This document shows, piece by piece, positions 8,594-12,272 of a stretch of 26,172 nucleotides of DNA. Origin of the DNA: a virus; IMG/VR virus record IMGVR_UViG_3300009076_000039, positions 1 through 26,172 of that record; one strand, given 5' to 3'. The translations under genes were made by a program, and so were the position numbers. The first letter of the stretch is position 1. Each line of letters begins with the position of its first letter. The notes under the pieces are model-generated. The model was not told where the DNA came from, did not search any database, and saw only the letters and a program-made list of their open reading frames with translations.

Positions 8594-8621
8594 GGGCTGC
8601 CTTCGGGCGGCCCTTTTTTTT
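8594..8621 (+). terminator. Strong intrinsic terminator after gene 23
   Basis: Stem GGGCTGCC (8594-8601) with GGCGGCCC (8606-8613), closed by a C(TTCG)G tetraloop with one G-T wobble, followed by eight T (8614-8621). A textbook intrinsic terminator insulating the capsid transcript. Confidence 0.95.
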
Positions 8622-8622
8622 G

Positions 8623-8630
8623 TATAAATA
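8623..8630 (+). promoter_or_regulatory. T4-type late promoter right after the gene 23 terminator
   Basis: Exact TATAAATA starting one base past the terminator T-run and 24 bases before the next ATG. It restarts late transcription for the second gp19-like gene and possibly uvsY and uvsW. Confidence 0.85.
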
Positions 8631-9179: not shown

Positions 9180-9623
9180 ATGAACTTGGAATCCGTTCTG
9201 GAAATGTGGAAAAAAGATAGTGTTATTGAACAGTTTAATTTAGACGACACTAGTAGAAATACACCAGCATTACACGCAAAATATTTAGAACTTCTTTCTA
9301 TTGCTAAACTGCAATTAAAGAAAGCTGATCTTACACAAAAATCCCTATTAAAGAAAAAATGGCTTTACTATAATGGTAAACTCACTCAAGATCAAATTGT
9401 TGAACTTGGTTGGGAATTTGATCCGTTTAATGGCCTTAAAGTCCTAAAAGGTGAAATGGAATATTACTATGATGCTGATGTAGATATACAGAGATCAGAA
9501 GAAAAAATATTATATCATAAAACTATGATTGAAACATTAACAGAAATTGTTACTAATTTAAACTGGAGACATCAGACTATTGGTAATATGATCAAGTGGA
9601 GGCAATTTGAAGCCGGTGGATAA
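9180..9623 (+). CDS. uvsY: Recombination mediator UvsY
   Basis: Loads the UvsX recombinase onto gp32-coated single-stranded DNA in recombination-dependent replication. 147 residues against 137 in T4. Mostly helical and charged, with the family C-terminus (IKWRQFEAGG here, MRAFEAGK in T4) and the LKKKWLYYNGKLTQDQ segment corresponding to the T4 ALKARLDYYSGRG region. A GGAG ribosome site precedes ATG. The last codons overlap the uvsW start, as expected for the uvsY-uvsW pair. UvsX itself is not in the window. Confidence 0.93.
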   Translation: MNLESVLEMWKKDSVIEQFNLDDTSRNTPALHAKYLELLSIAKLQLKKADLTQKSLLKKKWLYYNGKLTQDQIVELGWEFDPFNGLKVLKGEMEYYYDADVDIQRSEEKILYHKTMIETLTEIVTNLNWRHQTIGNMIKWRQFEAGG

Positions 9624-11130
9624 GATTACACTAAAGAAAAAAAACCAGTCAGTAATGCACATTCAGACAGATCCTGGTATAGCAAATGAGTTAAGTGATT
9701 TTTTCTCATTCTTTGTCCCAGGCTATAAATTTATGCCTGCATTTAAAAATCGTATATGGGATGGGAAGATTAGATTGTTTAATGCGCAATCTTGTGAGTT
9801 ACCTATAGGTCTATTCTCATATGTGCAAGAGTTTGCTCAACAGAGAAAGTATATTGTAGAAGTTGAACATGATGCATATTACGGTAGACCAGATTCAGTT
9901 AATGATGTTGACTTAGTTGAACTTGCTACGTTTGTAGAGGGTCTTAACTTAACAAGTCGTGGTAATAAGATTGCTCCTAGAGAATATCAAGTAGAAGCTA
10001 TGGTTGAAGCTATTCATCGTAAACGAGCCATTCTACTAAGCCCAACCGGTTCTGGTAAATCTCTTATCATTTATTTACTTATGCGGTGGTTGTTAGATAG
10101 ATCAACTAAGAAGGTTTTGGTTATTGTACCAACTACATCACTAGTGCAACAAATGTATGCTGACTTTGAAGATTATTCTAAATTTGATGAGACTTGGGAT
10201 GTTGAACTAGAAGTACATAGAATTTACTCTGGTAAACCTAAGATGAATATGAGTCAGAGAATATTTGTATCAACATGGCAATCTGTTTATAAACTTCCAG
10301 GTGCATGGTTTGAGCAATTTGGTACAGTATTCGGCGATGAGTGTCACGGGTTTAAATCTAAATCTCTTACTGGTATTATGAATAAATCGAGGGAAGCTGA
10401 ATATAGATTTGGTACAACTGGTACACTTGACGGCACTCAAACACATAAATTAGTTTTAGAAGGTCTTTTTGGACGGATATATAATGTTACTACCACCAAG
10501 AAACTACAAGATGATAGTACACTAGCTGCATTAGATATTCAGATACTACTATTAAAATACCCTGAAGACATCAGAAAGAATTTTGGTAAACAACAGTATC
10601 ACGATGAACTAGACTATATTGTAAAAAACGAGGCAAGAAATAGACTTATATCAAATCTAGCAATAGATCAAGATGGTAATTCTTTGGTTCTTTTCCAGTA
10701 TGTTGAGAAGCATGGAAAGGTGCTATATAATCTTATAAAGGATAAAGCACACGAACGCAGAAAAGTATTCTTTGTATCAGGTGAGACAGATACTAATGAT
10801 CGTGAAGCAATCAGAAAGATTGTAGAGACACAGAAGAATGCAATAATTGTTGCAAGTTTAGGTACATTCTCTACAGGTATTAATATTAGAAACTTGCATA
10901 ACATTGTTTTTGCATCACCTTCTAAATCTCAGATTAAAGTCCTACAGTCTATTGGACGTGGATTAAGAAATTCAGATGACGGATCAACTACTACTCTATA
11001 TGACATAGCAGATGATCTACACTGGAAGGGAAGAAAAAATTACACACTAGTACATTCTGCGGAAAGAATAAAAATTTACGCCAGAGAATCATTTAATTAT
11101 AAAATATATGAAGTTGAGTTAAAAACATGA
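9616..11130 (+). CDS. uvsW: DNA/RNA helicase UvsW
   Basis: Superfamily 2 helicase that unwinds R-loops and branched intermediates, switching replication from origin to recombination mode. About 504 residues (T4: 503). Motifs, numbered from the possible TTG at 9607: Walker A SPTGSGKS (145-152), DEAD-type DECH (244-247), motif III TGTLDG (270-275), motif VI QSIGRGLR (447-454). No ATG is available. GTG at 9616 gives MDKITLKKK..., which reaches the DFFSF motif at the same distance as in T4; TTG at 9607 is nearer a GGAGG site. I favour GTG on homology. The start overlaps the uvsY end, and the stop overlaps the next start (ATGA). Confidence 0.94.
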   Translation: MDKITLKKKNQSVMHIQTDPGIANELSDFFSFFVPGYKFMPAFKNRIWDGKIRLFNAQSCELPIGLFSYVQEFAQQRKYIVEVEHDAYYGRPDSVNDVDLVELATFVEGLNLTSRGNKIAPREYQVEAMVEAIHRKRAILLSPTGSGKSLIIYLLMRWLLDRSTKKVLVIVPTTSLVQQMYADFEDYSKFDETWDVELEVHRIYSGKPKMNMSQRIFVSTWQSVYKLPGAWFEQFGTVFGDECHGFKSKSLTGIMNKSREAEYRFGTTGTLDGTQTHKLVLEGLFGRIYNVTTTKKLQDDSTLAALDIQILLLKYPEDIRKNFGKQQYHDELDYIVKNEARNRLISNLAIDQDGNSLVLFQYVEKHGKVLYNLIKDKAHERRKVFFVSGETDTNDREAIRKIVETQKNAIIVASLGTFSTGINIRNLHNIVFASPSKSQIKVLQSIGRGLRNSDDGSTTTLYDIADDLHWKGRKNYTLVHSAERIKIYARESFNYKIYEVELKT

Positions 11131-11522
11131 GTGAAATAAGACAGTTTAAGTTGGTTGACGGATCAGAAATAGTTTGTGAAGTTATTGAATGGAATGATGA
11201 TACAACAGATGAGATTGTAATGCGTAATGCACTAGTAATACAGTATATGGTGAGAGATGATCATAGGCTATGTTCTATGAGACCATGGATGCTTCAGCAA
11301 GTCCAAAATGATTATCTACAAACACTTAATGCTGGCCATATTACAGTAGATGCTAAACCAGCACCAGAGACTTTAGAAAACTATGAAGAAACAGTACAAT
11401 TCTTACAAACTAACTTAGAAGACTTGGATGAAGAATCCTTAGATGATCTAATAGAGATTGATGAGGAAGAAAAAGATAATATTCTTAACTTTATGCAATC
11501 AAGAAAAGACAAACTTCACTAG
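11127..11522 (+). CDS. Conserved small protein, possibly Sm/Lsm-like
   Basis: 131 residues, translationally coupled to uvsW (ATGA overlap). The first 45 residues, with KLVDGSEIVCEVIEWND then EIVMRNALVIQ, have the strand pattern and Gly-containing turn of an Sm1 motif (hydrophobic-L-x-DG-x-x-hydrophobic then strand). That suggests an RNA-binding Sm/Hfq-like barrel, but this is fold-level inference. The C-terminal 40 residues are very acidic (LEDLDEESLDDLIEIDEEEK), with no membrane segment. Its placement between uvsW and 55 and the lack of its own promoter suggest expression with uvsW. The leftward promoter at 11554-11582 would transcribe antisense to it. Confidence 0.7.
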   Translation: MSEIRQFKLVDGSEIVCEVIEWNDDTTDEIVMRNALVIQYMVRDDHRLCSMRPWMLQQVQNDYLQTLNAGHITVDAKPAPETLENYEETVQFLQTNLEDLDEESLDDLIEIDEEEKDNILNFMQSRKDKLH

Positions 11523-11553
11523 TCTCTCTCTCCTACCCCAAAATGCTTAATTT

Positions 11554-11582
11554 ATTATACCATAGTTTACACAAAATGTAAA
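11554..11582 (-). promoter_or_regulatory. Leftward sigma70-type promoter (TTTACA-17-TATAAT, extended -10)
   Basis: On the minus strand: -35 TTTACA (11582-11577), a 17-bp spacer, -10 TATAAT (11559-11554), preceded by TGG (extended -10). This equals the best rightward promoters of the window. Transcription would start near 11547 and run leftward, antisense to the small acidic protein and uvsW; no minus-strand gene of credible length follows. Confidence 0.7.
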
Positions 11583-11583
11583 C
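11565..11583. repeat. Perfect inverted repeat over the leftward -35
   Basis: GTTTACA (11565-11571), 5-base spacer, TGTAAAC (11577-11583). The right half contains the leftward -35 hexamer, so a dimeric regulator bound here would block that promoter. It could also be a weak hairpin. No U-run follows on the plus strand. Confidence 0.6.
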
Positions 11584-11626
11584 CCCTAAAATGCATTTAT
11601 TTTACTTTTTTTTATTAATTTAATTG

Positions 11627-11655
11627 TTTACACATACTCAAATATGTGATATAAT
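11627..11655 (+). promoter_or_regulatory. Early-type promoter for gene 55 and downstream
   Basis: TTTACA (11627-11632), 17-bp spacer, TATAAT (11650-11655) preceded by TGA (extended -10). The G before the -35 gives GTTTAC as in T4 early promoters. Inside the spacer is a perfect inverted repeat CACATA/TATGTG (11631-11636, 11643-11648), a possible operator. Confidence 0.88.
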
Positions 11656-11678: not shown

Positions 11679-12272
11679 ATGGCAAGAACTAAACGAGCTA
11701 GTATTCATTATGTTAATAACGCAGAATTTTCTAATAGTGTTGTTGAATATGTGAAAACTGTTATAGAAGCCAAGGACAAAGAACAACCGCTACCTATTGT
11801 ACCAGACTATATTGCTCAGTGTTTCTTAAAGATCGCTGAAGGTTTATCTCATAAATCAAACTTTATTCGCTACACATATCGCGAAGAAATGGTAATGGAC
11901 GCAGTTGAGAATTGTTTAAGAGCAGTTGAAAATTATAATATTGAAGCCGCCACACGTACAGGTAAGCCTAATGCATTTGCTTACTTTACACAAATTAGTT
12001 GGTATGCATTCCTAAGGAGAATTGCAAAGGAGAAAAAACAACAAGAAATTAAATATAAGTATCTCACATCATCTGGTGTAGAAGCATTTATGAGCATAGA
12101 CATGTCTGAAGAATTCAGTAAACTTGTTGTAGCTAACTATGTTGATATATTAAAAGATAGAATTGAGAAAGTTAAAGAAGCTGATAATGTTGTTAAGGAG
12201 TTAGTAAAGAAAGAAAAGCGCAAGAAGCGTGAAATAAAGGTAGACTCTGATCTAAGTGAGTTTATAAAATGA
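11679..12272 (+). CDS. 55: Late-transcription sigma factor gp55
   Basis: Highly diverged sigma70-family factor that directs host RNA polymerase to TATAAATA late promoters; with gp33 it is coupled to the gp45 sliding clamp. 197 residues against 185 in T4. Family text: IHYVNNAEF at the start, IAEGLSHKSNFIRYTYREEM, DAVENCLRAVENYN, NAFAYFTQISWYAFLRRIAKE (region 2-like DNA-melting and core-binding helices). The C-terminal third is Lys/Glu-rich and less conserved. It has a consensus promoter and a strong AAAGGAG ribosome site. The stop overlaps the start of gene 47 (ATGA). Its targets lie in the left third of this window. Confidence 0.95.
   Translation: MARTKRASIHYVNNAEFSNSVVEYVKTVIEAKDKEQPLPIVPDYIAQCFLKIAEGLSHKSNFIRYTYREEMVMDAVENCLRAVENYNIEAATRTGKPNAFAYFTQISWYAFLRRIAKEKKQQEIKYKYLTSSGVEAFMSIDMSEEFSKLVVANYVDILKDRIEKVKEADNVVKELVKKEKRKKREIKVDSDLSEFIK

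Follow-up and report, generated by a model that had tools for sequence, protein, structure and literature searches.

Why would a T4-like marine phage carry a consensus promoter that points against every neighbouring gene and leads into no gene of its own? The question is raised by positions 11554-11582 of the stretch of viral DNA analysed here (26,172 nucleotides, referred to in its entirety as the window), where a preliminary description had placed a minus-strand promoter firing antisense into the late region. The comparisons performed in this study indicate that this promoter almost certainly belongs to a cassette of about 60 bp, made up of a leftward sigma70-type promoter, a covarying start-site repeat and a G-rich start, which Kyanoviridae-type marine phages retain behind the uvsY-uvsW operon, at its 3' end, and which opposes all its neighbours and encodes no protein.

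Genomic context and architecture of the leftward promoter

The window covers part of the genome of a T4-like marine myovirus of Kyanoviridae type, and its gene order UvsY-UvsW-small acidic protein-gp55-gp47-gp46 is common to Synechococcus, Prochlorococcus and Pelagibacter phages. The features of the locus are the following:

8623-8630, plus strand: T4-type late promoter motif TATAAATA, ahead of the tail-tube-like gene and of uvsY and uvsW
9180-9623, plus strand: UvsY-like protein, with the position and length of annotated UvsY in relatives
9607-11130, plus strand: UvsW helicase (Pfam UvsW_N, 4.9e-18), toward which the leftward RNA would run
11127-11522, plus strand: small acidic protein, encoded by the final gene of the uvsY-uvsW operon, in the position of T4-GC_139
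11523-11540, minus strand: G/purine-rich predicted first transcribed bases, TGGGGTAGGAGAGAGAGA
11541-11553, minus strand: inverted repeat AAAT-taagc-ATTT, weak in the window (4 bp), with its centre at the predicted start (about 11547)
11554-11559, minus strand: -10 hexamer TATAAT, extended by TGG at 11560-11562
11577-11582, minus strand: -35 hexamer TTTACA (TTGACA, TTTACA, TGTACA or TTGACT in relatives, from 192 aligned promoters)
11627-11655, plus strand: rightward gp55 promoter, TTTACA-17-TATAAT, without a start-site repeat
11679-12272, plus strand: gp55 late sigma factor, 61.6% identical to the annotated gp55 of phage C48C1

The late motif TATAAATA occurs five times on the plus strand of the window and never on the minus strand. 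The small acidic protein gene, annotated in cyanophages as 'methylamine utilization', ends 31 bp from the leftward -10. In the clade of the window (L002-L080), its product very often carries a His directly before the stop (LH*, FH*, IH*, MH*; window 11511-11522), and this terminal His is frequent despite fast divergence elsewhere in the family. A strong intrinsic terminator, GGGCTGCC-TTCG-GGGCGGCCC with a T8 run, lies immediately 3' of the major capsid gene (8594-8613, plus strand).

Re-reading of the minus strand confirmed each element of the proposed promoter, namely TTTACA-ttttgtgtaaactatgg-TATAAT at 11582-11554, with a 17-bp spacer and TGG ahead of the -10. The form TTTACA-N15..19-TATAAT was matched six times in the window, compared with 0.07 matches expected from dinucleotide shuffles; five of these sites are rightward (11627, 15985, 19569, 22431 and 25493) and the one at 11554-11582 is the sole leftward match, in agreement with the earlier statement that the leftward form occurs at no other intergenic site checked. 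A generic promoter scan of the window returned 63 sites against 62.9 expected, that is, no excess, and the case for a leftward promoter therefore rests on its exact form and its conservation. Transcription is predicted to start at about 11547 and, given the orientation of the promoter, would run antisense toward the small acidic protein and uvsW, as had been described. The reported lack of a credible minus-strand gene also held: no leftward ORF of credible length was found near the predicted start in the window, and leftward ORFs across relatives did not exceed those of shuffled sequence in length, so that a minus-strand protein gene was discarded.

An imperfect direct repeat (CCCCaAAATGCttAatTTA and CCCCTAAAATGCATTTATTTT, window 11536-11556 and 11583-11604) flanks the leftward promoter, and its second copy (CCCCTAAAAyGCAT) was found again in many relatives immediately upstream of the leftward -35. 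The inverted repeat GTTTACA-caaaa-TGTAAAC, formed by spacer and -35 (11565-11583), was considered as an operator and rejected, being absent from the closest relatives (L002 and L003).

Conservation of the leftward promoter across relatives

About 400 gp55 loci were gathered and reduced to 272 non-redundant upstream regions, in which a strong promoter was defined by at least 10 of 12 matches and a spacer of 16-18, with dinucleotide shuffles as controls. A leftward promoter of this kind was found upstream of gp55 in 81% of the 272 loci compared with 7% of the shuffles, and one with at least 11 matches in 57% compared with 0.7%, in counts where related clades are not fully independent. By the same rule, the rightward gp55 promoter was detected in 83% and 62% of the loci, respectively. 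A recognisable leftward promoter was missing in about a fifth of the loci. Loss of the motif in close relatives, which the preliminary description had named as a refutation of its proposal, was not seen, nearly all relatives retaining the site.

Among 192 relatives, the leftward -10 reads TATAAT in 109, TAGAAT in 35 and TACAAT in 24; the predicted hexamers drift among variant forms, as would those of a selected promoter, and sigma70-type hexamers with a spacing of 16-18 bp are retained, as in early promoters. The promoter was recognisable in all 11 named Kyanoviridae examined, S-CRM01 (TACACT) and ACG-2014f (TTGCCA) being the weakest; the predicted leftward start falls at about 123,698 (minus strand) in Syn9 and about 80,260 (minus strand) in HTVC008M. 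Exact matches lying with and against the genes numbered 11:1, 11:1, 22:1, 2:1, 21:2 and 16:2 in six long relatives, and in all six the leftward site was among the one or two counter-oriented matches; the second such match in one of them (G018) is upstream of minus-strand ORFs. Two further long records had no exact promoter match on either strand. The Menderavirus phage Marzo has the same gene order, but its small gene and gp55 are only 11 bp apart, which leaves no room for the cassette; thus, the cassette is not universal to the uvsW-small gene-gp55 order.

A covarying inverted repeat at the predicted start

When the leftward promoters were aligned on the -10, an inverted repeat emerged with its centre at the predicted start, 7.7 +/- 1.0 nt past this hexamer. 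The mean best stem at this place was 3.55 bp, versus 2.57 bp when the 3' arms were swapped between loci (z = 21). The same test gave 2.45 versus 2.58 bp at the gp55 promoter, which has no start-site repeat, and little or no stem signal was found at offsets of 20-60 nt. Relatives carry stronger repeats than the window, e.g., AAATCT-aag-AGATTT, GGTCTA-tg-TAGACC and AACGG-tgt-CCGTT, and other lineages have arm pairs such as AAGCT/AGCTT or CCGG/CCGG, with many two-sided changes by which pairing persists although the arms are wholly different. Wobble pairs were considered as a sign of which strand folds (16 G-T versus 2 A-C), but they derive mostly from a conserved TGT(AG) loop and a single-clade consensus, and this indicator was set aside.

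The bases that follow are rich in G: over positions 10-26 in 192 relatives, G reaches 35% and C 12%, and GGG is present in 67%, compared with 9% farther downstream. The conserved unit is the promoter plus about 25 bases predicted to be transcribed. Neither the cassette nor a covarying repeat with its centre at the start of a phage promoter was described in the literature searched, which covered few subscription papers, and no earlier description of a hairpin-at-start architecture was met for either a promoter or an origin.

In four of six long cyanophage records, the promoter and repeat core has one or two further copies on the plus strand, before small ORFs, and the repeat is thus not exclusive to the leftward site; in five other genomes and in the window the core occurs only once. 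The additional plus-strand promoters with a AACACTGTnAGGGTT-like core are L421 (Syn9 52741-52784, plus strand), L424, L425, L428 and L420; related small ORFs of about 67-75 codons, with the motif S-YDLE-YIDGIR...FDYIK, follow the copies in Syn9, G002 and G003 (46.7 kb).

Position at the end of the uvsW operon

Across relatives, the median distance from the preceding stop codon to the leftward -10 is 31 bp. Among 44 non-redundant loci in which inserted genes separate the small protein gene from gp55, 28 retain the leftward promoter directly behind the small gene; in the remaining ones the cassette is mostly found behind the inserted gene, near gp55. It persists whichever gene is last in the operon. 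In the subset of inserted-gene loci inspected, gp55 mostly has its own adjacent promoter, and a rightward promoter stands beside the leftward one in only 1 of 24. Judging from its placement behind the small gene in loci with insertions, the cassette marks the end of the uvsW-containing operon, not the start of gp55, and the predicted leftward promoter is no fixed partner of the gp55 promoter, since insertions separate the two. A cytidylyltransferase-like gene (FTCSxFDLLHAGHxxMLRxAKxxCDY), which seems to lack a strong promoter, is inserted before gp55 in many relatives (L255-L308).

RNA structure, termination and origin signatures

The predicted leftward RNA showed no excess of structure over shuffled sequence in six cases (z from -1.5 to 1.2), and no Rfam family came near its gathering score, the one sub-threshold snoRNA match being attributable to chance; a structured sRNA was discarded on these grounds. 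No intrinsic terminator, i.e., a G+C-rich stem with a U-run, was called on the plus strand at 11523-11560, where the repeat is followed by ATTATA.

In five genomes, cumulative GC skew did not reach an extremum at the cassette, its minimum being 9-39 kb off, and thus does not support the reading of the cassette as an origin. In Syn9, HTVC008M, G003 and G017 this minimum is reached 9-22 kb leftward of the cassette (near the gp13-gp17 region in Syn9 and HTVC008M), and the skew has a range greater than that of block shuffles. T4 oriA and oriC also lie outside nucleotide-skew shifts (PMC3016281), and a single theta origin was predicted for Syn9 (PMC2984593). DNA stability downstream of the cassette is moderately low but not extreme, which marks out no clear unwinding element, and the most unstable DNA is located between the two promoters. 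Cyanophage cassettes hold one G run only and hence lack the strict G-cluster pattern of R-loop-forming sequences. The leftward promoter has a full -35 at sigma70 spacing in place of the MotA box of a middle promoter; cyanomyoviruses are devoid of motA (PMC2984593). No passage on the leftward site was present in the cyanophage RNA-seq literature searched.

Possible functions of the cassette

Antisense RNAs and transcript-primed origins are both already known in T4-like phages, as exemplified by CfrI of cyanophage S-PM2 (PMC2984593) and by T4 oriF and oriG. The T4 origins are elements of about 100 bp with a promoter and an unwinding element, are primed by R-loops and are switched off when UvsW, a late protein that unwinds origin R-loops, appears; one of them, oriE, apparently uses an early promoter (PMC3016281). 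The cassette resembles oriF (ori-uvsY) in its location 3' of uvsW and in an RNA directed back toward this gene, and oriG (ori-34), whose primer RNA opposes the neighbouring gene 34; all three are short and share a sigma70-type -10. In contrast, oriF and oriG combine MotA middle promoters with an A+T-rich unwinding element, and the oriF RNA encodes uvsY, whereas the cassette, a candidate origin only, has a full -35, no ORF, an inverted repeat at the start and a G-rich start. No equivalent repeat exists at the start in oriF, which has its own CACGT-ACGTG repeat upstream of the -10. With the rightward early promoters of cyanomyoviruses, which depend on host sigma70, the cassette shares identical hexamers and spacing, but it differs from ordinary early promoters in opposing genes, in lacking an ORF and in its covarying start-site repeat.

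Because neither an ORF nor a folded RNA in six cases accompanies the promoter, an action in cis at the DNA is favoured. Host RNA polymerase would use the leftward promoter early in infection, and the selected function would be the act of starting RNA at the cassette. The leftward RNA could then form an R-loop and prime DNA replication, or provide its entry point, with the G-rich start stabilising the RNA-DNA hybrid; the displaced non-template strand might fold across the start-site repeat and keep the upstream edge of the loop open, and UvsW produced late from the adjoining operon would subsequently remove it. In view of the parallels with T4 oriF and oriG, of R-loop priming and of the shut-off by UvsW, such a role in R-loop formation or replication priming is tentatively preferred to antisense or collision control, at somewhat below even confidence. 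That the cassette is the replication start of Kyanoviridae, where leftward RNA primes from an R-loop pinned at its upstream edge by a displaced-strand hairpin across the start, is a more speculative proposal and rather doubtful.

The preliminary description had suggested that the leftward promoter may silence late genes or yield a regulatory RNA, which is possible. In its most explicit form, early leftward transcription would oppose late read-through of uvsY-uvsW-GC_139 and prevent premature synthesis of UvsW, an R-loop remover in T4. This is a serious possibility, although a doubtful one. In its favour, the cassette occupies the 3' end of the operon with its promoter directed into these genes, a late promoter motif precedes the operon in the window and exact-class early promoters are absent before 11.6 kb, UvsW is late in T4 and unwinds origin R-loops (PMC3016281), and CfrI provides a precedent for antisense RNA in a T4-like marine phage (PMC2984593), albeit one located at psbA and shown experimentally, whereas the RNA of the cassette is predicted. 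Nevertheless, antisense control leaves the covarying repeat unexplained, the cassette is not lost when a different gene ends the operon, and a leftward transcript would reach uvsW only after about 0.4 kb or more. An alternative is that the repeat is the operator of a phage regulator acting on a class of early promoters, whose leftward member yields an antisense or noncoding RNA incidentally. This explanation is kept alive by the reuse of the promoter and repeat core on the plus strand of some cyanophages, as Syn9, G002, G003 and G006 have AACACTGTnAGGGTT or a close core at other promoters, several of which lead into related small ORFs about 70 codons long. It is unlikely, however, given that the core is single in five other genomes and the window, and that pairing is preserved although the arms of different lineages have almost no sequence in common, a pattern better suited to a structure than to one binding site.

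The distance of about 31 bp from the last stop, whichever gene is last, would also suit a boundary at which the repeat acts as an RNA hairpin ending the rightward late mRNA, or at which a stalled polymerase blocks it. Such a role is very unlikely, since no intrinsic terminator was called at the cassette, the stems are of 3-6 bp, often AT-only and without a U-run, and the position of the repeat follows that of the leftward -10 (SD of the centre, 1.0 nt); moreover, 23 of 24 inserted-gene loci have no strong promoter right behind the cassette, and read-through thus seems to be needed. Non-functional bidirectional leakage from the gp55 promoter region, suggested by -35 boxes that overlap or interleave in some cyanophages (e.g., Syn9 and S-P4), and the relic of a rearrangement that had been put forward earlier are both highly improbable. 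Indeed, both hexamers are strongly maintained together with the spacing, the extended -10 and the covarying repeat, and the gp55 promoter is separable in the inserted-gene loci.

The conservation of a counter-oriented promoter with a start-site repeat suggests that the start of RNA at this site has a job of its own, perhaps the priming of replication. T4-like Kyanoviridae are abundant ocean viruses, and the cassette may bear on how their replication starts and on the timing of UvsW. As a site of about 60 bp kept across Synechococcus, Prochlorococcus and Pelagibacter phages, it offers a precise target at which an origin, antisense control and a regulated promoter can be told apart.
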